Part shown: piece by piece, positions 7,319 through 20,074 of the stretch | Position numbering within the stretch: the first letter of the stretch is position 1 | How the letters are laid out: every line of letters begins with the position of its first letter | From: a virus | Strand: one strand, 5' to 3' | DNA: 58,030 nucleotides | Virus record (IMG/VR): IMGVR_UViG_3300031857_000212 | Span: 1 to 58,030 of that record | The notes under the pieces: model-generated | Database searches by the model: none | Seen by the model: only the letters and a program-made list of their open reading frames with translations | Told to the model about the DNA's origin: nothing | Made by a program: the position numbers and the translations under genes

Positions 7319-8089
7319 ATGGCTCGAGCAACAGCAAAGAAAATAGCACCTGATAATGTACAATGTGAGCCATCTGCTAGATCAGCAACCAAAACAATAA
7401 ACAATCACTTAAAATTAAGACTTGATGACTTAAAAACATTTCAACCATTAACAGATAATCAAAAGATTTTCTTTGATGCATACAAACGTGGTGATTATTT
7501 CGTAGCATTACATGGAGTTGCGGGAACAGGAAAAACCTTCTGTGCTTTATACAAAGCAATTGAAGAAGTAATGGATAAAGGAAATCCATTTGACAAAATT
7601 ATTGTAGTACGTTCTGCCGTACAATCACGTGAGATGGGGCATCTTCCAGGAGACGTTAATGAGAAGATGGAAATTTACCAACAACCATATCGTCAAATAT
7701 GCGACACCTTATTTGGTCGCAAAGATGCATGGGATCGTTTAGAAGAACAAGGACATATCCAGTTTATTTCTACATCGTTTATTCGTGGTATGTCATTCGA
7801 TGATGCAATCATTATCGTTGACGAAATGCAGAACTTAACATTTGAAGAGATCGACACAGTTATGACTCGTGTTGGTTATCGTTCTAAGATCATTTGGTGT
7901 GGCGATTATCGTCAGACAGATCTAAATAAGAAGAAGAACGATATGTCTGGAATTCTGAAATTTTTTGATATTGCCCATCACATGGGTGCTTTTACTCGAG
8001 TTGAATTTACTCCCGACGATATCGTACGCAGTTCTCTTGTTAAGGATTATATCCTAGCAAAACTAAAATACGAAGACATAGGAGATTAA
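7319..8089 (+). CDS. phoH: PhoH-like P-loop ATPase
   Basis: This 256-residue PhoH-family protein has the Walker A motif GVAGTGKT at residues 66-73, the family motif VVRSAVQSREMGHLPGDVNEKMEIYQQP split by the usual spacing, and Walker B with IIIVDEMQN. DNA helicase-like sensor residues follow (IIWCGDYRQTDL). PhoH genes are widespread in marine and freshwater phages. The biochemical role is an ATPase likely acting on RNA; the link to phosphate stress is uncertain. The ORF is complete and in canonical length for phage versions. Confidence 0.93.
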   Translation: MARATAKKIAPDNVQCEPSARSATKTINNHLKLRLDDLKTFQPLTDNQKIFFDAYKRGDYFVALHGVAGTGKTFCALYKAIEEVMDKGNPFDKIIVVRSAVQSREMGHLPGDVNEKMEIYQQPYRQICDTLFGRKDAWDRLEEQGHIQFISTSFIRGMSFDDAIIIVDEMQNLTFEEIDTVMTRVGYRSKIIWCGDYRQTDLNKKKNDMSGILKFFDIAHHMGAFTRVEFTPDDIVRSSLVKDYILAKLKYEDIGD

Positions 8090-8710
8090 ATGATTACCTC
8101 AAGCCAATTTGCACATCTATTCCCAAGGGCACAAGACCCACAGGGTTGGGTCGATGCAATGAATAATGTATTCCCAACATATAACATTGATACACCACAA
8201 CGCATTGCAGCATTCCTTGCTCAGTGCGGACATGAGTCTGGTGGTTGGACGACATTTGAAGAAAACCTTAATTACTCTGCACAGGGATTAAATGGTATCT
8301 TTAAAAAGTATTTCCCTACACTTGAGTCAGCACAACCTTATGCACGCAAGCCAGAAATGATTGCCAATAAAGTTTATGGTGGTCGTATGGGTAATGGACC
8401 AGAGTCTTCAGGTGATGGATGGAAATATCGTGGACGTGGTCCGATTCAATTAACTGGTAAAGCAAACTATATGGCGTTTGCCAAAGAAATGTTTGATGAC
8501 TGGCAAAACATATTTGAAAATCCAGATTGGGTTACTGCAGATCGTGACTTTGCTTTAATGTCAGCTATCTGGTTTTGGAATAAAAACGGATTAAACAAAG
8601 AAGCGGACTCTGGTGATATTAAAACCATGACACGTAAGATTAATGGTGGCTTCATTGGGTTGGAGGATCGCATCAAACATTACAATGAAGCGATTCACCT
8701 TCTAACTTAA
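8090..8710 (+). CDS. GH19 chitinase-like endolysin
   Basis: This 206-residue protein is a glycoside hydrolase family 19 enzyme, the usual endolysin type in many Gram-negative phages. The catalytic glutamate is in CGHESGGW (E49), a second acidic cluster is FEENLNYS (E57/E58), and the substrate-binding YRGRGPIQLTG is at about residues 112-122. It should cleave peptidoglycan glycan strands. No signal peptide is visible, so it needs a holin; the candidate holin lies at 21831 on the other strand. It starts directly after phoH and ends in a TAATG overlap. Confidence 0.92.
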   Translation: MITSSQFAHLFPRAQDPQGWVDAMNNVFPTYNIDTPQRIAAFLAQCGHESGGWTTFEENLNYSAQGLNGIFKKYFPTLESAQPYARKPEMIANKVYGGRMGNGPESSGDGWKYRGRGPIQLTGKANYMAFAKEMFDDWQNIFENPDWVTADRDFALMSAIWFWNKNGLNKEADSGDIKTMTRKINGGFIGLEDRIKHYNEAIHLLT

Positions 8711-9438
8711 TGTTAGAACTTTTATATGTTCTAGTTGTGACGCATATTACTATTTTATGCGTCACACTTTTTCTACATAGAGCCCAAGCGCACAGAGGTG
8801 TTACATTTCATCCAGCTGTGAGTCATTTTATGAGGTTCTGGTTATGGATGACCACTGGTATGGTAACGAAACAATGGGTAGCCATACACCGCAAACATCA
8901 CAGGTATAGTGATCAAGAAGGTGATCCTCACACACCTCATGTGTACGGTATTTGGCGTGTATTGTTTAAAGGTGCATTTTTATACCATGATGCTAGTAAA
9001 GATAAAGATATGGTTAATTCATATGGAGTTGGAACTCCTGATGACTGGATAGAAAATAATGTCTACACCAAACACAGTAAACTTGGTGTTAGCTTAATGA
9101 TGATTATTAATATTCTACTATTTGGATGGGTAGGATTGTTAATTTGGGGTATACAGATGATATGGATTCCATTCTGGGCAGCAGGAGTTGTGAATGGAAT
9201 AGGACATTGGGTAGGTTACCGTAATGGAACTACTAAAGATCAAAGTCGAAACATTAGTCCTTGGGGGATTATTATTGGTGGTGAAGAACTGCACAACAAC
9301 CATCACTTAAATCCTGCTAGCCCCAAATTAAGTAGAAGATGGTTTGAATTTGATATTGGTTGGATGTGGTTAACAATCCTAGACAAATTTAAATTGGCAA
9401 AAATTAAAAATGAAATACAAAACGATATTCATAAGTGA
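8710..9438 (+). CDS. Membrane fatty acid desaturase (acyl-CoA/acyl-lipid delta-9 type)
   Basis: All three histidine boxes of membrane desaturases are present in this 242-residue protein: HRAQAH (23-28), HRKHH (60-64) and HNNHH (about residue 197). Hydrophobic segments at the N-terminus and around LMMIINILLFGWVGLLIWGI give the usual membrane fold. It would insert a double bond in membrane acyl chains, using an Fe-Fe centre and host electron carriers. It is coupled to the endolysin (TAATG) and overlaps the LpxH-like gene by 29 bases. Confidence 0.9.
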   Translation: MLELLYVLVVTHITILCVTLFLHRAQAHRGVTFHPAVSHFMRFWLWMTTGMVTKQWVAIHRKHHRYSDQEGDPHTPHVYGIWRVLFKGAFLYHDASKDKDMVNSYGVGTPDDWIENNVYTKHSKLGVSLMMIINILLFGWVGLLIWGIQMIWIPFWAAGVVNGIGHWVGYRNGTTKDQSRNISPWGIIIGGEELHNNHHLNPASPKLSRRWFEFDIGWMWLTILDKFKLAKIKNEIQNDIHK

Positions 9439-10192
9439 TGTACATTTAGGAACTCGTGATTGTCAAGCTGATAAATTAAATAATTTTTTGAAAAATAATA
9501 CCTGCGAGACTTTATATCTCGTGGGTGATATAATAGATGCATGGCGTATACAACAAAACAAATGGCGATGGAGACAAAGCCACACTAACGTAGTACGTCG
9601 TATATTGGGTCATGCTAAACGTGGCACAAGAGTGATTTACGTAGCAGGCAATCATGACGAATTCTTAAGACCAATGATACCATATGGTTTTAGTTTTGGT
9701 ACAATAGAAATACGCAATCAAGCAGAACATATAGGGGTAGATGGTAATCACTATCTTGTAGTTCATGGAGATCTATTTGATGGAATTACTAGACTCGCAC
9801 CATGGATAGCATTCTTAGGAGACAAAGCATATGACTTCGTTCTTAGTATCAATTCCAAATATAATTGGATACGTCATCGTATGGGTTTTGGGTACTTTAG
9901 CCTTAGCAAGTTCCTTAAGCATAAAGTTAAAAAAGCAGTAGACTTTGTATTCAAGTTTGAAGAAAACTTGGCGGGATATTGCAAGAAGCGTGGGTTTGAT
10001 GGAGTTATTTGTGGGCATATACACCATGCCGAGATTAAAGAGATTGATGGTGTCATGTATATGAATGATGGTGATTGGGTTGAATCTTGTACTGCATTAG
10101 TTGAGCATCATGATGGTCGATGGGAAATAGTAACATGGACTAAGGAGAAAGATGATGTGGTTGTTAATACTAGTAGCAGTGCACATGAATAA
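9410..10192 (+). CDS. LpxH-like UDP-2,3-diacylglucosamine pyrophosphatase family
   Basis: This 260-residue metallophosphoesterase has SDVHLG (9-14), LVGDIID (about 37-43), YVAGNHDEF, VVHGDLFD and ICGHIHHA, and closes with NDGDWVESCTALVEHHDGRWEI, the signature of the LpxH-like COG2908 group. In bacteria LpxH hydrolyses UDP-2,3-diacylglucosamine to lipid X in lipid A synthesis. A direct role in lipid A is inference, because relatives of this subgroup are not all characterised. Its place between a desaturase and a glycosyltransferase supports an envelope role. Confidence 0.85.
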   Translation: MKYKTIFISDVHLGTRDCQADKLNNFLKNNTCETLYLVGDIIDAWRIQQNKWRWRQSHTNVVRRILGHAKRGTRVIYVAGNHDEFLRPMIPYGFSFGTIEIRNQAEHIGVDGNHYLVVHGDLFDGITRLAPWIAFLGDKAYDFVLSINSKYNWIRHRMGFGYFSLSKFLKHKVKKAVDFVFKFEENLAGYCKKRGFDGVICGHIHHAEIKEIDGVMYMNDGDWVESCTALVEHHDGRWEIVTWTKEKDDVVVNTSSSAHE

Positions 10193-10328
10193 TCCACAGG
10201 ATCAGCCAGGAAAAATTGAATTAGAATTCAAAGATCGGATGAGTTGCGAATTCGCTTTGGCATCAATGAAGTTTGAATTGAAGTTTAAGAATTTTAAGGT
10301 AGAAGGTAAATGTCAAAAAATACTTTAG
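10185..10328 (+). CDS. Small hypothetical protein, 47 residues
   Basis: The frame starts at ATG 10185 within the end of the LpxH-like gene (ATGA overlap with its TAA context) and ends at TAG 10326-10328, inside the glycosyltransferase gene that starts at 10310. The product reads MNNPQDQPGKIELEFKDR and then an alternating FELKFKNFKVEGK that should form a beta hairpin. It fills what would otherwise be a 117-nt gap. No family was recognised. Confidence 0.5.
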   Translation: MNNPQDQPGKIELEFKDRMSCEFALASMKFELKFKNFKVEGKCQKIL

Positions 10329-11029
10329 AGGATAAAATCACAATAGTTGTTCCATGTAAGAACGAAGAAAACTATATTGCGCATTTATTAATGCATTTAC
10401 GTCAACAATCGATAGGCAATACTAAAATTATCATTGCTGATTGCTCAACTGACAAAACACGAGAAGTTATTCAAATAATGAAGGGTGAATTGAATGTTGA
10501 GGTTATTGATGGTGGACCAGTTTCTATTGCAAAGAACAATGGCGCAAAATTAGTAACAACTCCATACATACTGTTTATTGATAGCGATGTAAGATTTTTC
10601 TCTAACACAGTTATACTTGACACAGTAAATGAATTAGAGTATAATAACTTAGATCTCATTGGATTGTATGCGAAGTGTTATGATGGTAATTTAACTGCAC
10701 AAATTGGATTTATGTTATTCAATGCAGTTAACAACATATTGAAATATAAAGTTCCATTTGCTGTTGGTGCTTACATGTTAACACGAAGAAACAAGTTTGA
10801 AGAATTTGGTGGATTTCCTGCCAAGTTTGGAACTAGTGAAGACTTCTTTCTCTCTAAGATGTATGATGTTAAAAAGTTCAAATTGGTGAATCATTATTTT
10901 GGGCAGGACAGTAGAAGATTTAAGAAGATGGGATATTTTGGCATGGCTACATATCTTATCAAAAATTTTTGGAATAGAAATAATGAAGAATATTGGAACA
11001 AAATGGATTATTCGAAATATTGGAACTAA
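10310..11029 (+). CDS. Family 2 glycosyltransferase (GT-A fold)
   Basis: This 239-residue protein has the GT2 opening ITIVVPCKNEENYIAHLL (about 11-28), the nucleotide-binding IIIADCSTDKT, and the metal-binding LFIDSDVRF. A mid-protein segment (GFMLFNAVNNILKYKVPFAVGAYML) is partly hydrophobic and may contact the membrane. GT2 enzymes move a sugar from a nucleotide donor to lipid, polysaccharide or protein. With the desaturase and LpxH-like genes it suggests modification of the host envelope or LPS; DNA-base glycosylation is an alternative. Confidence 0.87.
   Translation: MSKNTLEDKITIVVPCKNEENYIAHLLMHLRQQSIGNTKIIIADCSTDKTREVIQIMKGELNVEVIDGGPVSIAKNNGAKLVTTPYILFIDSDVRFFSNTVILDTVNELEYNNLDLIGLYAKCYDGNLTAQIGFMLFNAVNNILKYKVPFAVGAYMLTRRNKFEEFGGFPAKFGTSEDFFLSKMYDVKKFKLVNHYFGQDSRRFKKMGYFGMATYLIKNFWNRNNEEYWNKMDYSKYWN
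10617..10645 (+). promoter_or_regulatory. Consensus sigma70 promoter inside glycosyltransferase gene
   Basis: TTGACA (10617-10622) and TATAAT (10640-10645) are both perfect consensus hexamers with a 17-nt spacer. It would start a transcript near 10652 that covers the 3' part of the glycosyltransferase and the exonuclease. It lies in coding sequence and has no TGCAA spacer start, so it may be fortuitous. Confidence 0.4.
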
Positions 11030-11683
11030 ATGAAGACATTTATACATCATGATTTACCCAAACTCGAACGTGCCACATCCTCCGATGGAACAAGAGTCTA
11101 CAAGACTCCATCGGGTTCAGCCTATCCAAGCGTCACTACCGTTACAGGATTACACACAGCAAAGGGAATCGCAGAGTGGAGAAAGCGAGTCGGAAACGAA
11201 GAAGCAAACCGAATCTCTGGAAAAGCATCAGCAAGAGGCACAAGGATTCACGGATACTGTGAAGACTACCTACGAGGAAACTTATTCGAAGCCGACATGT
11301 TCGACCTCGAAATGTTCAACTCCATTAAACCCTTACTTGACAAAGTCGACAAAATTCACTGCTTGGAAGATCCACTCTATTCTGACCACTTACAAGTCGC
11401 TGGAACAGTTGATTGTATCGCAGAGTTCCAAGGTAAACTTAGTGTCATAGATTTTAAGACATCAAGTAAACCAAAAGATCGTGATGATATTCATAACTAT
11501 TTTATGCAAACTGCAGCATACGCTGTTGCCTTTGAAGAGAGAACAGGCATTCCTGTTGGTAGACTTGTAATTATTATGGCTGTTGATAATGATGATCCTC
11601 GTTGGTTTATCGAGAAACGTGATAACTGGATTGGTGGGTTTCGCAAACTAAGACTTGACTATAAGAATAAATATAACATCTAA
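11030..11683 (+). CDS. PD-(D/E)XK exonuclease, MGME1/RecB-like
   Basis: This 217-residue protein has the RecB-family nuclease core: RGTRIHGYCEDYLRG (the conserved histidine motif), VAGTVDCIAEF (first catalytic aspartate), LSVIDFKTSSKP (D-x-K) and the following QTAAYAVAFEE (QxxxY). Phage proteins of this type are usually annotated as exonucleases similar to mitochondrial MGME1 and are thought to process DNA ends or degrade host DNA. The first 390 bases have clearly more C-ending codons than the rest. The next promoter begins two bases after its stop. Confidence 0.87.
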   Translation: MKTFIHHDLPKLERATSSDGTRVYKTPSGSAYPSVTTVTGLHTAKGIAEWRKRVGNEEANRISGKASARGTRIHGYCEDYLRGNLFEADMFDLEMFNSIKPLLDKVDKIHCLEDPLYSDHLQVAGTVDCIAEFQGKLSVIDFKTSSKPKDRDDIHNYFMQTAAYAVAFEERTGIPVGRLVIIMAVDNDDPRWFIEKRDNWIGGFRKLRLDYKNKYNI

Positions 11684-11684
11684 T

Positions 11685-11713
11685 TTGCCTTGCAAGAAAT
11701 TGTGGGGTATAAT
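11685..11713 (+). promoter_or_regulatory. Promoter of the tmRNA gene (TTGCCTTGCAA family)
   Basis: TTGCCT (11685-11690) and TATAAT (11708-11713) are separated by 17 nt. The spacer begins TGCAA and ends GGGG, as in the family at 5152, 15079 and 15458. Transcription should start near 11719-11721, just ahead of the acceptor half of the tmRNA. It may also serve the GroES gene by read-through. Confidence 0.8.
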
Positions 11714-11718
11714 TAGTG

Positions 11719-11982
11719 TATTGTTGTAATTCCTTCAAAGCAAAGGACTTCTGGACGTGGGTTCGACTCCCACCATCTCCACCATAAGAGTTGTTTAGAA
11801 TTTTTATGATGGGGATGCCATGGTTTCGACAGGGGTAGATAGTGGCGACGGCAACACAGTAGGCGATGACTGTAAATCAAGCAAAAAAGTAAATGCAAAC
11901 GACTCTGTCTACGCATTGGCAGCCTAAACGCTGACTAGGGTTTCGATTGGTTTCCTCGTAACAGAATAACCAATCATTAATT
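11719..11982 (+). ncRNA. ssrA: Circularly permuted (two-piece) tmRNA gene
   Basis: The tRNA-like 3' half comes first: T stem GTGGG (11757-11761), loop TTCGACT, CCCAC (11769-11773), acceptor strand CATCTCC (11774-11780), then ACCA (11781-11784). A 26-nt AT-rich intervening segment follows, then the 5' half, GGGGATG (11811-11817), which pairs fully with CATCTCC, including a G-U at the third pair, the alanine identity element. The D-loop-like GGTTTCGACAGG and tag ORF follow. Two-piece tmRNAs rescue stalled ribosomes after the intervening segment is cut out. RNA ends are estimates. Confidence is high for the permutation and lower for the exact 5' and 3' limits. Confidence 0.9.
11895..11927 (+). 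other. tmRNA proteolysis-tag reading frame
   Basis: The resume codon is GCA at 11895 and the frame reads ANDSVYALAA before TAA at 11925-11927. This matches the bacterial tag pattern AND....ALAA (E. coli ANDENYALAA), with the C-terminal LAA that ClpX recognises. The A-rich stretch before the resume codon (AAAAAAGTAAAT) is as expected for resume-codon selection. Confidence 0.9.
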
Positions 11983-11986
11983 TTTT
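11945..11986 (+). terminator. Hairpin and T-tract at the end of the tmRNA gene
   Basis: GATTGGTT (11945-11952) pairs with AACCAATC (11968-11975) around a 15-nt loop, and a T-rich stretch with six Ts at 11981-11986 follows. It probably ends the tmRNA transcript or forms the 3' end of the coding piece. The loop is large, so read-through into the GroES gene is possible. Confidence 0.55.
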
Positions 11987-11999
11987 AAATGAGGACATT

Positions 12000-12272
12000 A
12001 TGATTGAACCATTGGGTAAAAAAGTTTACATTGCTGAAGTGAAAGTTGATGAGCGAAAAACTGAATCAGGCATTATTCTTGAGGGTGCGGCTTCTGTTAA
12101 AGTAACTAAGTTCGCTGAAGTATTAGAGATCGGTTACGATGTAAAGAAAGTTCGCAAGGGCGATAAAATTGTTCTTGATTGGGGTAAGTGCATACCAGTT
12201 AAGATCGGTAATGTTGAACGTGCACTGATTGACGAAGAAAACATCTTAGCGATTTATCGTGAAGATCAATAA
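12000..12272 (+). CDS. GroES-like co-chaperonin
   Basis: This 90-residue protein has the Cpn10 layout: MIEPLGKKVYIAEVKVDERKTESGIIL (roof strand plus the mobile loop with hydrophobic IIL that contacts GroEL), then VLEIGYD, VRKGDKIVLDWG and ENILAIYRE. It is likely to replace or assist host GroES with GroEL in folding phage proteins, the job of gp31 in T4. A GAGG ribosome-binding site precedes the ATG. It lies directly after the tmRNA gene. Confidence 0.85.
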   Translation: MIEPLGKKVYIAEVKVDERKTESGIILEGAASVKVTKFAEVLEIGYDVKKVRKGDKIVLDWGKCIPVKIGNVERALIDEENILAIYREDQ

Positions 12273-12291: not shown

Positions 12292-12486
12292 ATGAAACAT
12301 TTAATCGCATTGGTACTTACAACTTTTGCACTTTCTGCTTTTGCAGCAGACCCAGTTAAAGCACCAGCAACTCCTGCTCCAGAAAACACTAACTGTGTTA
12401 AGAAAGATAAGAATGGTAAGTGTCCTCCACTTCCAGATTCTCCAAAGCCAACTCCAAAGAAAAAAGCTGAAGAGAAAAAGTCCTAA
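12292..12486 (+). CDS. Small exported proline/lysine-rich protein
   Basis: This 64-residue protein has a Sec signal peptide (MKHLIALVLTTFALSAFA, cleavage after AFA-A) and a short mature part rich in proline and lysine (PATPAPENTNC, then PKPTPKKKAEEKK). The mature domain has two cysteines that could pair in the periplasm. An AAAGGAAA ribosome-binding site is present. Function is unknown; small exported phage proteins can act in superinfection exclusion or lysis control. Confidence 0.7.
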   Translation: MKHLIALVLTTFALSAFAADPVKAPATPAPENTNCVKKDKNGKCPPLPDSPKPTPKKKAEEKKS

Positions 12487-12494
12487 ATAGTATT

Positions 12495-12514
12495 ACTGGC
12501 TTGGTGGAGCCAGT
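12495..12514 (+). other. 7-bp hairpin after the exported protein gene
   Basis: ACTGGCT (12495-12501) pairs with AGCCAGT (12508-12514) around the loop TGGTGG. It is followed by an A-run and not a T-run, so it is not a standard terminator on this strand. It could be an RNA processing or stability element. Confidence 0.4.
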
Positions 12515-12563
12515 TAAAAAAACCACCATTACACACAACTTTTTACACACAAGGAGAAAAACT

Positions 12564-12836
12564 ATGGCAAATCTCACGCCATTTGAAATCCGTCTTGAAC
12601 TTCTCAAGATGGCAAAAGACATGCTTAACGATGACTACTACGGTAAGCGTGAACAAATTAGCAACGACTGGCAACAGAAAGTCGAATCTGCTAAACTCAA
12701 TGGTGGTACAATTCCTGATCATCCAGGATTTCCCACTATCCCATCTGAACAAGAAATTATTGCCAAAGCATCGGTACTTAATGGATTTGTTTCAAACATC
12801 CCACTAGATACAAAGACTAGCAAGAAGTCCACCTGA
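12564..12836 (+). CDS. Conserved small phage protein
   Basis: The start at ATG 12564 has a strong AAGGAGAA ribosome-binding site and gives 90 residues beginning MANLTPFEIRLELLKMAKDML, an opening common to a family of cyanophage and pelagiphage proteins. It continues with helical segments (KREQISNDWQQKVESAK) and a proline-containing middle (HPGFPTIPSEQEI). The frame is open upstream to 12501, but without a good start. Function is unknown. Confidence 0.75.
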   Translation: MANLTPFEIRLELLKMAKDMLNDDYYGKREQISNDWQQKVESAKLNGGTIPDHPGFPTIPSEQEIIAKASVLNGFVSNIPLDTKTSKKST

Positions 12837-12896: not shown

Positions 12897-13520
12897 ATGC
12901 GAACTAAAAAGATACTGGCAATTGTCAGCTTATTGATTTTATCAATAATCGCAACTACATTATATGCATCAAATAACATTTTTACACTGGATGATAAAAT
13001 TCTTGATGTTGCGTATTCAGAATTAACAAAAGATACTAAGAAACAAATTGATTGCTTGGCAGACAACATCTACCATGAGGCAAGAAGTGAACCAGAGAAA
13101 GGCAAAGTTGCCGTTGCTCTAGTGACCTTAAATAGAGTTGAAGACCCAAGATTTCCAAAAGACATCTGTGGGGTAGTCAAACAAAAGACACAAGGTATGT
13201 GTCAATTTTCTTGGTTCTGTACTGCAGTCAAAAGTAATAAAGGAAGTGAATCGTATCAGTCAGCGAAAGAAGTTGCTGTATACGTTTATGCCAACTACGA
13301 GAAACTACACGATATAACTAAAGGTGCTTTGTATTATCACGCTGATTATGTAAATCCAGGATGGAAGTTACAGAAAACAGTTACTATCGGTCGACATATT
13401 TTTTATAAAGAAGGTGGCAAAAACTATGATGGAAAAACTAAACCTCCAGCTGAAAGACGATTCAGCTTCGAGACATTCTTTCTTTCTGATGATGGAGGAG
13501 ATAAGTTTATCAACTTGTAA
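12897..13520 (+). CDS. SleB/CwlJ-type cell wall hydrolase with N-terminal anchor
   Basis: This 207-residue protein starts with a hydrophobic signal or signal-anchor (ILAIVSLLILSIIATTLYA, residues 6-24). The domain DCLADNIYHEARSEPEKGKVAVALVTLNRV, followed by FPKDICGVVKQ and CQFSW, is the Hydrolase_2 (SleB/CwlJ) core with the catalytic glutamate in YHEAR. It should cleave peptidoglycan, possibly as a lytic transglycosylase, in the periplasm. It is a second lysis enzyme beside the GH19 protein. Its last ~95 bases overlap the ClpP-like gene in another frame. Confidence 0.85.
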   Translation: MRTKKILAIVSLLILSIIATTLYASNNIFTLDDKILDVAYSELTKDTKKQIDCLADNIYHEARSEPEKGKVAVALVTLNRVEDPRFPKDICGVVKQKTQGMCQFSWFCTAVKSNKGSESYQSAKEVAVYVYANYEKLHDITKGALYYHADYVNPGWKLQKTVTIGRHIFYKEGGKNYDGKTKPPAERRFSFETFFLSDDGGDKFINL

Positions 13521-13986
13521 GAATGCAATTGAGTGGGTGTTTGAAGCAAACTTTGCTGAAGAACGACCAGACATGCTTAATCTTATTATTTGCTCTCCAG
13601 GTGGAGATTTGAATGCTGCTTTTGCTATGGTTGACACAATGCGTGGATCAGCCATTCCCATTAGAACAATTGGCTTGGGTCAAATTGCTTCTGCTGGATT
13701 AATGATTTTTATTGCTGGTGAAAAGGGACAACGTATTCTTACACCGAATACTTCTATTCTCTCTCACCAATATTCATGGGGTGCTTTCGGTAAAGAACAT
13801 GAGTTGTTTGCTCAAATTAAAGAGTTCGACTTAACTACCAAACGCATGATTGCTCATTACAAAAAATGTACTGGGTTATCAGATAAAGAAATTCGTGAAG
13901 TATTGTTGCCACCACAAGATATTTGGTTGAGCGCAAATGAAGCGAAAAAATATGGGATTTGCGACGATGTTAAAGATATTAAGTAA
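13426..13986 (+). CDS. clpP: ClpP-like serine protease (S14)
   Basis: The start at ATG 13426 (or 13429) has AAGAAGGTGG upstream, giving about 186 residues that begin MEKLNLQLKDDSASRHSFFLM. The oxyanion-side SPGGDLNAA (57-65), the nucleophile region GQIASAGLM (S89) and ILSHQYSWG (H114) match ClpP, and LSANEAKKYGICDDV is the usual C-terminal motif. ClpP degrades substrates passed on by ClpX or ClpA, including tmRNA-tagged proteins. No phage ClpX is visible, so it would use host unfoldases. Alternatively it acts in head maturation. Confidence 0.88.
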   Translation: MMEKLNLQLKDDSASRHSFFLMMEEISLSTCKNAIEWVFEANFAEERPDMLNLIICSPGGDLNAAFAMVDTMRGSAIPIRTIGLGQIASAGLMIFIAGEKGQRILTPNTSILSHQYSWGAFGKEHELFAQIKEFDLTTKRMIAHYKKCTGLSDKEIREVLLPPQDIWLSANEAKKYGICDDVKDIK

Positions 13987-14380: not shown

Positions 14381-14384
14381 CCCG

Positions 14385-14413
14385 ATAACCCTACTCTCTG
14401 TAGGGTTATTTTT
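14385..14413 (+). terminator. Intrinsic terminator
   Basis: A 10-bp stem (ATAACCCTAC with GTAGGGTTAT) closes a TCTCT loop and is followed by five Ts at 14409-14413. It follows the stop of the membrane protein gene by four bases and ends the GroES-clpP unit. Confidence 0.85.
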
Positions 14414-15078: not shown

Positions 15079-15107
15079 TTGACTTGCAAAATACTTTAGG
15101 GTATAAT
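15079..15107 (+). promoter_or_regulatory. Sigma70-type promoter of repeated family (TTGACTTGCAA)
   Basis: TTGACT (15079-15084), a 17-nt spacer starting TGCAA and ending GGG, and TATAAT (15102-15107). The downstream ATG at 15114 lies seven bases after the -10 box, at the expected transcription start, so the mRNA is probably leaderless. Confidence 0.85.
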
Positions 15108-15113
15108 TACATC

Positions 15114-15461
15114 ATGACTACTTTGATTTACACCTCGTTTAAAAAACGCAAGCCATCGAAACCTACAGCGAAGCAACGTCAAGTTCAAGCTGACTGGGAA
15201 GCACTACTAAAGAAGTATGAGCCCAAGAAACCGATCCAAGCAAAGACGGATGCGTTCTCATACTCGCTTGGAGCACCTGCTTGTCGTGAGACACCTAAGA
15301 TTCCAAGTCTTCCATTTACTGGTGGTGTTTGTGCCAAGAAAGAAAATCCAGTCTACACTGGAAACGCTATCAAAGGTATTGGCACCATGCACAAGTCAAA
15401 CTCTGTGCCTATCTTTACCGACGAACAAGCTGTTGAAATTGCAACAATGCGTCGTAATTGA
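15114..15461 (+). CDS. Basic hypothetical protein from a leaderless transcript
   Basis: From ATG 15114 the product is 115 residues, starting MTTLIYTSFKKRKPSKPTAKQRQVQADWEALLKKYEPKK, a strongly basic N-terminal part. It continues with prolines and two cysteines (GAPACRETPKIPSLPFTGGVCAKKE) and ends FTDEQAVEIATMRRN. This pattern is common in small ORFs of freshwater and marine phages. There is no ribosome-binding site, since the promoter -10 box is only six bases upstream. Function is unknown, though the basic N-terminus could bind nucleic acid. Confidence 0.72.
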   Translation: MTTLIYTSFKKRKPSKPTAKQRQVQADWEALLKKYEPKKPIQAKTDAFSYSLGAPACRETPKIPSLPFTGGVCAKKENPVYTGNAIKGIGTMHKSNSVPIFTDEQAVEIATMRRN

Positions 15462-15486
15462 CTTGCAAAACTTTTTAAGGTATAAT
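15458..15486 (+). promoter_or_regulatory. Sigma70-type promoter of repeated family (TTGACTTGCAA)
   Basis: TTGACT (15458-15463) overlaps the TGA stop of the preceding gene; a 17-nt spacer starting TGCAA and ending GG precedes TATAAT (15481-15486). The ATG at 15492 starts six bases after the -10 box, so a leaderless mRNA is expected. Confidence 0.85.
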
Positions 15487-16985: not shown

Positions 16986-17909
16986 ATGGATATTCAAAAA
17001 CTCCGCTCAATGCGCAACTCTGATTTTGGTGCAATTGCCAATGCTTTCGAGAAAGTTGCCAACCCCCAATCCGAAACCAAGTCCTACGTTGACGACCGAT
17101 TCTGGCGTCTAGAAGGCGATAAAGCAGGTAACGGCACAGCAACACTAAGATTCCTACCACGTGTAGAAGGTGATGAACTCCCATGGGTTCGTATCTTTTC
17201 TCATGGCTTCCAAGGACCAACTGGTAAGTGGTATATCGAGAACTCACTGACTACTCTTGGTGAGAATGATCCTGTTGGTGAATTGAACACTCAACTTTGG
17301 AACTCTGGTTCTGAAGCCAACAAAGAGATTGCTCGTAAACAAAAGCGTAAGTTATCTTTCACTGCCAATGTCTTGGTTGTGTCTGATCCAAAACACCCAG
17401 AGAACGAAGGTAAGGTATTCTTGTTTAAATTTGGCAAGAAAATCTTTGACAAGATCATGGACAAAGCACGTCCAACTTTCGAAGATGAAAAGCCAGTGAA
17501 TGTATTTGACTTATGGGAAGGTGCCAATTTCAAACTGCGTATGCGTAAGAAAGATGGTTATGCCAACTATGATGAGTCTGTGTTTGCTGATCCTTCTCCT
17601 GTCTCAGAAGATGAAAACAAACTGTTGGCAATTGTAAACTCTCAAACTAAGTTATCTGAGTTTACTGATCGTAAGAACTTTAAGTCTTATGATGAACTCA
17701 AGAAGAAACTGAATGAGGTTTTGTCTGGTGATTCTTTTGCTAGCAAATCTGCTGCAGAGATTGCTTCTGATGAAGATCGTCCAGTTCGTGCTGCACCAAC
17801 ACCAGCTAGTTCTATGCCAGCTTCAACTCCAAAGGCAAGCAAACCTGCTCCGATGGATGACGACGAAGATGTGATGTCTTACTTTGAGAAGATCGCACAA
17901 GAAGATTAA
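16986..17909 (+). CDS. gp32: gp32-like single-stranded DNA-binding protein
   Basis: This 307-residue protein has the T4 gp32 layout: an N-terminal cooperativity motif KLRSMRN (5-11), the OB-fold core (FWRLEGDKAGNGTATLRFLPR, KWYIENSLTTLG, KRKLSFTANVLVVSDPKHPENEGKVF, FDLWEGANFKLRMRKKDGYANYDES) and an acidic tail DDDEDVMSYFEKIAQED that recruits partners such as gp59. The zinc-binding cysteines of T4 gp32 are absent; the protein has no cysteine. It coats ssDNA in replication and recombination. A terminator follows it. Confidence 0.95.
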   Translation: MDIQKLRSMRNSDFGAIANAFEKVANPQSETKSYVDDRFWRLEGDKAGNGTATLRFLPRVEGDELPWVRIFSHGFQGPTGKWYIENSLTTLGENDPVGELNTQLWNSGSEANKEIARKQKRKLSFTANVLVVSDPKHPENEGKVFLFKFGKKIFDKIMDKARPTFEDEKPVNVFDLWEGANFKLRMRKKDGYANYDESVFADPSPVSEDENKLLAIVNSQTKLSEFTDRKNFKSYDELKKKLNEVLSGDSFASKSAAEIASDEDRPVRAAPTPASSMPASTPKASKPAPMDDDEDVMSYFEKIAQED

Positions 17910-17928: not shown

Positions 17929-17955
17929 AATGGGAGCCTTGCGCTCCCATTTTTT
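17929..17955 (+). terminator. Intrinsic terminator between gp32 and the convergent late block
   Basis: AATGGGAGC (17929-17937) pairs with GCTCCCATT (17943-17951) around CTTGC and leads into a T-run to 17955. It ends the gp32 unit. The opposite-strand tape measure stop codon (17954-17956) overlaps its T-run, so convergent transcription meets here. Confidence 0.9.
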
Positions 17956-20074
17956 ATGCGTATCTGCTAGACAGATAACTACTAACAGAATTATCTCGAT
18001 TACGTGGCTGTAATTTGATAGTTTGTTGGGTGTTCTGAACATTGTTAACAGTTGGAGCAGAAACAATAGTATTCCCACCACCAGAGTTAGGTTTCGAAGC
18101 ATCCATGTTTGCTTCTTTGTTTTGCTCAGATTGTTTAGCAACAGCATTACCACTTTGAGGTGATGTAGCTGTATCAATTCTTCTTGGATCTACTGCAGCA
18201 AACTGAGATGACCCTTGTCCTGCACCAGCATTACTAGTTCCTGCAGGTATTGCTGCGGATTCTGCTTTAAATGGACGCCATGGACCAACACCAAAATCTT
18301 TACCCGCTATGCTGAAGCTAATTCCAGGAATTTCAAAATTATTAAACCAGCCAAATACAGTATCTTTAAGATTAGAGAAAAACTTAGTTACTGGTTCAAA
18401 TACAGTCTTTAATGGCTGAATAATGAATTCGTCAAATAAGCCAGCCACAGTACTAAATGCTGCCATTACTGGCTCTTTGATATACGTATTGAATGCATCA
18501 CCCAAGAAATTAAAGAATTTGGTGATAGGTTCTACGATATATTCAGTAACGAATCCCGATACAGCATTAACTATATTCTTAACAGTTTCAGCATCAAACA
18601 ATCCGAATGTTAAGAATGATAGAACACCACCAAGACCAGCAATTAGTGCTTCACCAATAGATCCAGTTTCAGAGAATACTTTAAATCCATCCATAATACC
18701 ATTCACAAGCGACCCGATGATCATGGCTGGTGCGAAGAACTTAGTGAATGCTTTTAATAGGTTTTTTGGATTAAATAAGAACTTGACTGCAGTCATGAGT
18801 CCATTGCCAAGGAATCCCATAATACTATCCAGAATACCTCCACCTGCGCCAGCTTCTTCTTTTGGTGCAGGTTTAATGGCACCAGCTGATCCTCTTGTGT
18901 TTTCTTCAATCTGTTTTAATACAGCATTACCTTCATCTACCTTCTTATTTTGCTCAAGAGATGCTTCTTCACCTGACAGTGCAGATGCAGCAGATTCGGC
19001 ATTCTTATCTACTTTTTTAGGTTGAGTGAATGGAAGAATTATAGCAGATCGTTTTTGATCTTCTTGTGTTTGTGGTTTCTCAGTAATAACTTCTGGCTTA
19101 ATAGCAGAGATAACTGAGCTAACTGCAGCAGAAGCTGTAGCTTTTTGTTTCTTAGCTGATTTGGGTTTAGCTTTTTCAGTAATATCGGTAGATGCAGGAA
19201 CTCCAACATCAGCTGCTTGTTTCTTAGCTGATTTGGGTTTAGCTTTTTCAGTAATAACTTCTGGCTTTATAGCAGAGATAACTGGTTGTTTGACTAAGCC
19301 AGTTTTAGGATCAAATCCTTGAGGGCGAACACGAGTGTCAACCTTAGCTAGATCAGTAGCAAGAGTTTCTCTTTTCTTAAACTCTTCAGATCGTTTGATC
19401 TGTTCTTCAGTGAAACCTTGTTTCTTAAACGTAGAAAGAGCAGACTCATTCTTTCTAATGTTACGTTGGACGTTCTGCTGTTCATCAAACTGACGAGAGA
19501 AAATCTGACTAGCTTTTTCTGTGCCATGTAGACGTGCTGTTGGATCCATTTTAAGACGAGAAGCAACATACTTTTGACGTTCTTCTCGTTTATCAAGCAT
19601 GTCAGAGAATACGCCTCCAGTTCCACGTTTGACAATGCCTGTCTTATCTAAGAAGCCACGCATCGTAAAAAAGTCTTTTGCCTTATATTTAAACTCACCA
19701 ACACGATCGCCGATGCCTCTGAACTGGCGACGTTCCATAGCCTTACCAGTTATATCTTTGGCTTGCTCTTTAGATAATGGACTTCTAGGACTTGCAGCTT
19801 GCGCTAATTGTTTTACCTCTTCGGTAGTTTTCTTAATTTCAGTAAACAACTTAATGACGTTAGAATTAACACCACCTTTGTTCTTATCATTACTTGATTC
19901 GTTTAAATCTTTGATAGAAGCATTAATTTTCTTGAGTTCTTCAAGATTCTTATCGCCATCTTTATCAATATTGAAGGCTTCCTTAGTCTGAATGAGCTGA
20001 AGTAGTCGATCCTGTTTGGACAGTTCGAGTAATTTGTTCAGAGAATTCTGCTGATTAGCTAATACTGTTTGCAT
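17954..20074 (-). CDS. Tail length tape measure / baseplate hub subunit (gp29-like)
   Basis: This 706-residue protein is encoded downstream of the hub chaperone genes, the normal place for a tape measure. The first half is charged and helical with a repeated KAKPKSAKKQ/AIKPEVITEK module; residues about 430-530 contain hydrophobic helices (NLLKAFTKFFAPAMIIGSLVNGI, LIAGLGGVLSFLTFGLF). The C-terminal end RNRDNSVSSYLSSRYA is like that of other T4-like hub/tape measure proteins. T4 gp29 is 590 residues, so the tail may be somewhat longer. The start at 20074 follows the gp51 stop immediately. Confidence 0.82.
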   Translation of the reverse strand: MQTVLANQQNSLNKLLELSKQDRLLQLIQTKEAFNIDKDGDKNLEELKKINASIKDLNESSNDKNKGGVNSNVIKLFTEIKKTTEEVKQLAQAASPRSPLSKEQAKDITGKAMERRQFRGIGDRVGEFKYKAKDFFTMRGFLDKTGIVKRGTGGVFSDMLDKREERQKYVASRLKMDPTARLHGTEKASQIFSRQFDEQQNVQRNIRKNESALSTFKKQGFTEEQIKRSEEFKKRETLATDLAKVDTRVRPQGFDPKTGLVKQPVISAIKPEVITEKAKPKSAKKQAADVGVPASTDITEKAKPKSAKKQKATASAAVSSVISAIKPEVITEKPQTQEDQKRSAIILPFTQPKKVDKNAESAASALSGEEASLEQNKKVDEGNAVLKQIEENTRGSAGAIKPAPKEEAGAGGGILDSIMGFLGNGLMTAVKFLFNPKNLLKAFTKFFAPAMIIGSLVNGIMDGFKVFSETGSIGEALIAGLGGVLSFLTFGLFDAETVKNIVNAVSGFVTEYIVEPITKFFNFLGDAFNTYIKEPVMAAFSTVAGLFDEFIIQPLKTVFEPVTKFFSNLKDTVFGWFNNFEIPGISFSIAGKDFGVGPWRPFKAESAAIPAGTSNAGAGQGSSQFAAVDPRRIDTATSPQSGNAVAKQSEQNKEANMDASKPNSGGGNTIVSAPTVNNVQNTQQTIKLQPRNRDNSVSSYLSSRYA
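19145..19256 (-). repeat. Direct repeat within the tape measure gene
   Basis: A 40-bp sequence at 19145-19184 recurs identically at 19217-19256 and encodes ITEKAKPKSAKKQ twice. Flanking copies of the VISAIKPEVITEK coding segment (near 19090 and 19258) extend the duplication. The unit is in frame and marks an internal duplication of the tape measure. Confidence 0.85.

Follow-up and report, generated by a model that had tools for sequence, protein, structure and literature searches.

A betaproteobacterial-type two-piece tmRNA gene ahead of a ClpP-family protease gene in an uncultured T4-like phage

One-piece tmRNA genes of phages, for example those of Streptomyces phages, keep the tRNA halves in the ordinary order, and they have the product class and an ALAA-type tag in common with the copy described here. 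Two-piece tmRNAs, encoded by circularly permuted genes, are also established in phages. By 2022, phage genomes had yielded 53, of which 50 were marine or aquatic; the gene of phage Melnitz had been described, and a permuted tmRNA was present in 17 of 47 Melnitz-like contigs (PMC9004378). The Rfam family RF04321 was built in a study that lists 79 phage tmRNAs of all forms (PMC11915505). The betaproteobacterial two-piece tmRNA (RF01850, e.g., Cupriavidus) shares with the gene analyzed here its permutation, acceptor stem, P2, and style of tag (AND..ALAA). A permuted phage tmRNA is therefore known in kind, and the new element of this locus is its recurrent placement ahead of a ClpP-family gene.

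The window, i.e., the whole stretch of DNA that was analyzed, comprises the 58,030 bases of a viral IMG/VR record (IMGVR_UViG_3300031857_000212, here G000). The T4-type genome named in the initial annotation was confirmed by the T4-like core genes that share its contig, comprising a gp32-like ssDNA-binding protein, tail tube, DNA end protector, tail tube cap, tail lysozyme, and gp6-type baseplate wedge. Based on the gp6 wedge protein, the nearest cultured relatives were Methylophilales phage Melnitz (41.9% identity) and the Pelagibacter phages Mosig (41%) and HTVC008M. The beta-type tmRNA and the IMG/VR relatives suggest that the window phage may be a freshwater one.

The circularly permuted (two-piece) tmRNA gene at 11722–11985 is complete and intact. 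The initial annotation had proposed such a gene at 11719–11982, which was right to within a few bases, and the covariance search that it suggested beforehand returned full-length matches to both RF01850 (beta_tmRNA; 160.1 bits, E = 1.6e-49, 11671–11997) and RF04321 (tmRNA_permuted; 155 bits, E = 6.7e-31, 11722–11927), each far over its gathering score. Among the clan of alpha, beta, cyano, and standard models, RF01850 gave the top score (cut-off 84), and the full-length match to the merged model RF04321 (PMC11915505) revealed no defining difference. ARAGORN likewise called a permuted tmRNA (tmRNA*) with the tag ANDSVYALAA, and it found no one-piece tmRNA reading at the locus.

All elements named in the initial annotation were located on the plus strand. 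The acceptor piece, or 3′ tRNA half (11720–11784), contains the P2 strand TGTTGT, the T arm with the T stem GTGGG/CCCAC (11757–11773), the acceptor 3′ strand CATCTCC (11774–11780), and an encoded ACCA (11781–11784). It is followed by an intervening segment of 26 nt (11785–11810), presumably removed on maturation, with a hairpin that extends the acceptor stem and a terminal TGAT. The coding piece (11811–11985, 3′ end approximate) carries the 5′ tRNA half with the acceptor 5′ strand GGGGATG (11811–11817) and the D-loop-like motif TGGTTTCGAC (11821–11830), and the mRNA-like part, in which the tag reading frame GCA..TAA (11895–11927) starts at the resume codon GCA called by ARAGORN and encodes ANDSVYALAA-stop; an ACAGT/ACTGT hairpin in the sequence and a 3′ hairpin (11945–11975) also lie within this piece. 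As originally claimed, the acceptor stem pairs completely across the permutation (7/7 pairs) and keeps the G–U third pair, G3–U70. The tag frame is intact, with a degron-like tail.

In some respects the window copy departs from the bacterial form. While the Cupriavidus tmRNA scores 284–287 bits, the window copy reaches 160; its tag ANDSVYALAA matched no genome of the 84,980-species set, and the beta-type 3′ terminator hairpin, which lies outside the tmRNA core, is degenerate. Most pairs of the GC-rich 3′ terminator hairpin of RF01850 were unsupported in the window alignment, and a terminator scan also found none. The minimum free energy of the whole strand was not exceptional (z −1.8) under a model that excludes pseudoknots and trans-pairing. 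Overall, the sequence describes a tmRNA that is well preserved and probably functional.

Relatives of the window ClpP were sought in IMG/VR, giving 80 loci. Of these, 46 were distinct and either extended far enough upstream or had a detected tmRNA gene. A permuted tmRNA was found on the same strand, 1.25–3.1 kb upstream of ClpP, at 44 of these 46, and Rfam added locus L139 to bring the count to 45; at the remaining locus, L180, no tmRNA was present within its 4.0 kb upstream of ClpP. The tmRNA detector gave no matches in 1.1 Mb of shuffled DNA. The "rare case" foreseen in the initial annotation was thus contradicted, both by these dozens of IMG/VR copies and by the 53 published ones (PMC9004378).

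Across 63 non-redundant copies from phage contigs, the acceptor and T stems remained paired via compensatory changes, with G3–U70 kept in all 63. The 18 non-redundant copies of the window's clade had fully paired acceptor and T stems, invariably G3–U70, and an encoded ACCA in 17; acceptor position 5 alternated among A–U, G–C, and C–G, and T-stem position 2 among U–A, C–G, G–C, and A–U. The middle of the tag varied, while AND...ALAA was kept in nearly all of the clade. The intervening segment spanned 26–200 nt in the relatives and usually formed a hairpin with TGAT just before the 5′ half. At related loci such as L168, L203, L204, L210, and L226 this segment is long (53–200 nt among relatives of the window), and pairing between its two ends extends the acceptor stem; the CCA would therefore lie in a near-continuous helix before processing.

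The gene order around the tmRNA is also shared with the cultured relatives. In the window, PhoH (7319–8089) and a PD-(D/E)XK nuclease (11030–11683) precede the tmRNA, and gp32 (16986–17909) lies further downstream; in the window's clade, the genes from the nuclease through gp32 stay together as a conserved block. The order is PhoH, PDDEXK, small ORFs, SsrA, late-transcription coactivator, and further on ssDNA-binding protein in Melnitz EXVC044M, and PD-(D/E)XK nuclease, small ORF, SsrA, late-promoter accessory, and further on ssDNA-binding protein in Mosig EXVC030M. These two T4-like phages therefore carry a permuted two-piece tmRNA at the same place as the window. However, the Mosig tmRNA is alpha-type (RF01849 67.6 bits, tag GEDNFALAA) whereas that of the window is beta-type; the next gene is the late-transcription coactivator in Melnitz and Mosig but groES in the window, and no ClpP is annotated between tmRNA and gp32 in either cultured phage. 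Since alpha- and beta-type copies occupy the same phage locus, the tmRNA is open to replacement or to divergence in situ, and we infer that a tmRNA has long been resident between PD-(D/E)XK and gp32 and has diverged or been replaced there. Elsewhere in this region, host-type genes for a fatty acid desaturase, an LpxH-like metallophosphoesterase, and a family 2 glycosyltransferase lie upstream at 8710–11029 and possibly act on host envelope lipids, and a 706-aa ORF without a PHROG match stands beside gp32 on the minus strand (17954–20074).

This history limits what the tmRNA can tell about the host. The initial annotation expected the gene to hint at the host from which it came, and this held insofar as the best model is betaproteobacterial. 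By its sequence the window tmRNA is of the betaproteobacterial type, and the host is assignable only as far as beta-type. An origin from the present host gained no support: the ANDSVYALAA pattern had no match in the GTDB genomes (84,980-species set), and a maximum-likelihood tree of 68 tmRNA copies, in which the Melnitz copy was probably mis-extracted, had a backbone without resolution. The tree supported only the grouping of the window with L128 and L138 (93%, with L070) and was not used for origin. Because the locus is an old phage one, common to SAR11 and OM43 phages, the tmRNA need not come from the present host.

A capture event could nevertheless have left a non-functional passenger, e.g., through imprecise excision of an element from host ssrA, which is a frequent integration site; capture is also the suggested origin of the Melnitz tmRNA (PMC9004378). 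We regard a passenger as highly improbable: dozens of diverged phages show purifying selection and compensatory changes, T4-like phages of SAR11, OM43, and freshwater type all retain the tmRNA at one locus, and the tmRNA is present almost universally in the window's clade.

The tmRNA is predicted to be the first gene of an operon. A sigma-70-type promoter, TTGCCT-17-TATAAT, is predicted at 11685–11713, between the tmRNA and the conserved PD-(D/E)XK nuclease gene directly upstream (11030–11683), which is the same neighbor as in Mosig and Melnitz. The predicted start site at about 11719–11720 coincides with the 5′ end of the acceptor piece. Taken as a class, promoter-like sequences in the region were close to the chance number (20 vs. 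15.1 expected), so the argument for this promoter draws on its position and conservation: TATAAT recurred at equivalent spacing at about half of 20 distinct related loci. Related loci that have no exact TATAAT, several of which abut the upstream gene, may be transcribed by read-through.

A terminator between the tmRNA and the following gene was lacking from the window and from nearly all relatives. The next good one in the window, an intrinsic terminator with an 11-bp stem (14384–14410) beyond ClpP, is the putative end of the unit. The predicted operon opened by the tmRNA comprises a GroES-like co-chaperonin gene (Cpn10; 12000–12272; PF00166, phrog_3188), whose ribosome-binding site GAGGA (11991–11995) follows just after the tmRNA, a short gene (12292–12486) for a protein that has no PHROG match and whose N terminus resembles a signal peptide, an unassigned ORF (12501–12836, start may be 12531), a SleB-type cell wall hydrolase (Hydrolase_2; 12897–13520; PF07486), the ClpP-family serine protease (13414–13986), and two further small ORFs, all on the plus strand. 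A ribosome-binding site and start codon followed about 55–66 nt past the tag stop in most of the window's clade. GroES was considered as a constant partner of the tmRNA and rejected, as it occurred in only a minority of relatives. Two strong promoter-like sites, TTGACT-17-TATAAT, were also seen between the ClpP unit and gp32 (15079–15107 and 15458–15486).

Taken together, the full-length Rfam matches, intact tag, covariation, conservation, promoter and terminator predictions, and gene linkage make it very probable that this phage gene is functional and specifies a betaproteobacterial-type two-piece tmRNA. From these data we infer its transcription, processing, charging, tagging, and the degradation of tagged products as follows. 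The tmRNA would be transcribed from a sigma-70-like promoter of its own, with continuation into groES, the hydrolase gene, and clpP. In the folded precursor the 3′ tRNA half would pair with its 5′ counterpart, and the intervening segment would be cut out by host tRNA-maturation enzymes, leaving two RNAs held together by the acceptor stem and P2. Host alanyl-tRNA synthetase would charge the tmRNA through G3–U70. With host SmpB, the tmRNA would enter ribosomes stalled on broken messages, add ANDSVYALAA, and free the ribosomes, and the tagged products would pass to Clp proteolysis, which the phage may reinforce.

Dependence on host SmpB is expected, since SmpB was absent from the window and from 14 related records, most of which are fragments. 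The tmRNA gene coming without SmpB would also suit an RNA that acts mainly as a decoy or inhibitor, capturing host SmpB, EF-Tu, or AlaRS and damping host trans-translation; such a precedent is proposed, as cited in a passage of PMC11915505, for the CDS-less tmRNA-like RNA of mycobacteriophage DS6A. However, a decoy needs no tag, while the window has an intact tag frame and nearly all of its clade keeps AND...ALAA despite divergence. The linkage to ClpP also argues against a decoy, which we consider improbable.

The linked protease gene matched PF00574 at 105 bits, over the family cut-off. The Ser, His, and Asp positions, which align with solved ClpP, were conserved in 53 relatives (His in 52 of 53). 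A Clp ATPase (PF10431) was absent in the 15 records searched, so a host unfoldase (ClpX or ClpA) would be needed. In five other IMG/VR records (G018, G045, G098, G100, and G096), ClpP-family frames were matched across in-frame TAG, TAA, or TGA, where stop-codon reassignment or disrupted genes are possible.

The pairing of permuted tmRNA and ClpP recurred outside the window's clade. In a second group, with contigs of 47–104 kb in which the T4 wedge protein was absent, ClpP is only 28% identical to that of the window. Among the second-group loci with at least 73% identity to the ClpP of L061, 15 of 17 distinct loci had the tmRNA no more than about 280 nt upstream, and the tmRNA of the remaining two was found by Rfam. 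At 60–73% identity the tmRNA was upstream at 18 of 38 loci, with L290 added by a later Rfam scan; given the high density of tRNA genes there, the linkage may be due in part to a cluster of RNA genes. In a third group (L005 and L224), the tmRNA lies about 60–570 nt upstream of a ClpP-like gene. One contig of the non-T4 group (L226) also has a gene for a Ro60/TROVE-type RNA-binding protein (670–1980), a few kb upstream of its tmRNA–ClpP pair in a tRNA-rich region.

A phage-wide association was examined and rejected. ClpP was present in 1 of 39 other contigs with a permuted tmRNA and in 4 of 40 contigs without an ARAGORN tmRNA call, many of these contigs being short, and the tmRNA–ClpP link is therefore confined to certain lineages. 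Some other phages, including cyanophage BUCT-ZZ01, have both genes, far apart. A limited literature search found no published description of tmRNA–ClpP pairing in phages, which is weak evidence of novelty.

Three groups with dissimilar ClpP have a permuted tmRNA directly upstream on the same strand, from which it follows that the arrangement may have been assembled more than once. We tentatively propose, at somewhat below even confidence, that selection maintains tmRNA and ClpP together as a phage module, in which the tagger and extra protease subunits are encoded in one operon. Alternatively, the ClpP-like gene may be a head-maturation protease whose nearness to the tmRNA is mere shared gene order, a reading to which we give appreciable but minority weight. 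By E-value, the window ClpP had its top PHROG match in "head maturation protease", a phage ClpP has been interpreted as a prohead protease (PMC5964084), and the conserved block from PD-(D/E)XK to gp32 could by itself explain the linkage within the window's clade. On the other hand, a separate gp21-type prohead protease (PF03420) was present in the five larger T4-like members of the clade tested and in a third-group phage, and the ClpP of the second and third groups best matched "ATP-dependent protease" and lies among RNA and nucleotide genes, away from head genes.

The findings indicate that a large group of uncultured T4-like phages would stably maintain phage-run ribosome rescue, encoded at a locus common to their marine relatives. 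The presence of alpha and beta copies at one locus bears on an earlier proposal in which a recent host switch was read from the tmRNA type. The coupling of tagging to a phage-encoded ClpP offers a testable idea for why phages keep a tmRNA. If the tmRNA–ClpP module is real, both ribosome rescue and the destruction of tagged proteins, whether host or truncated, would be under phage control.
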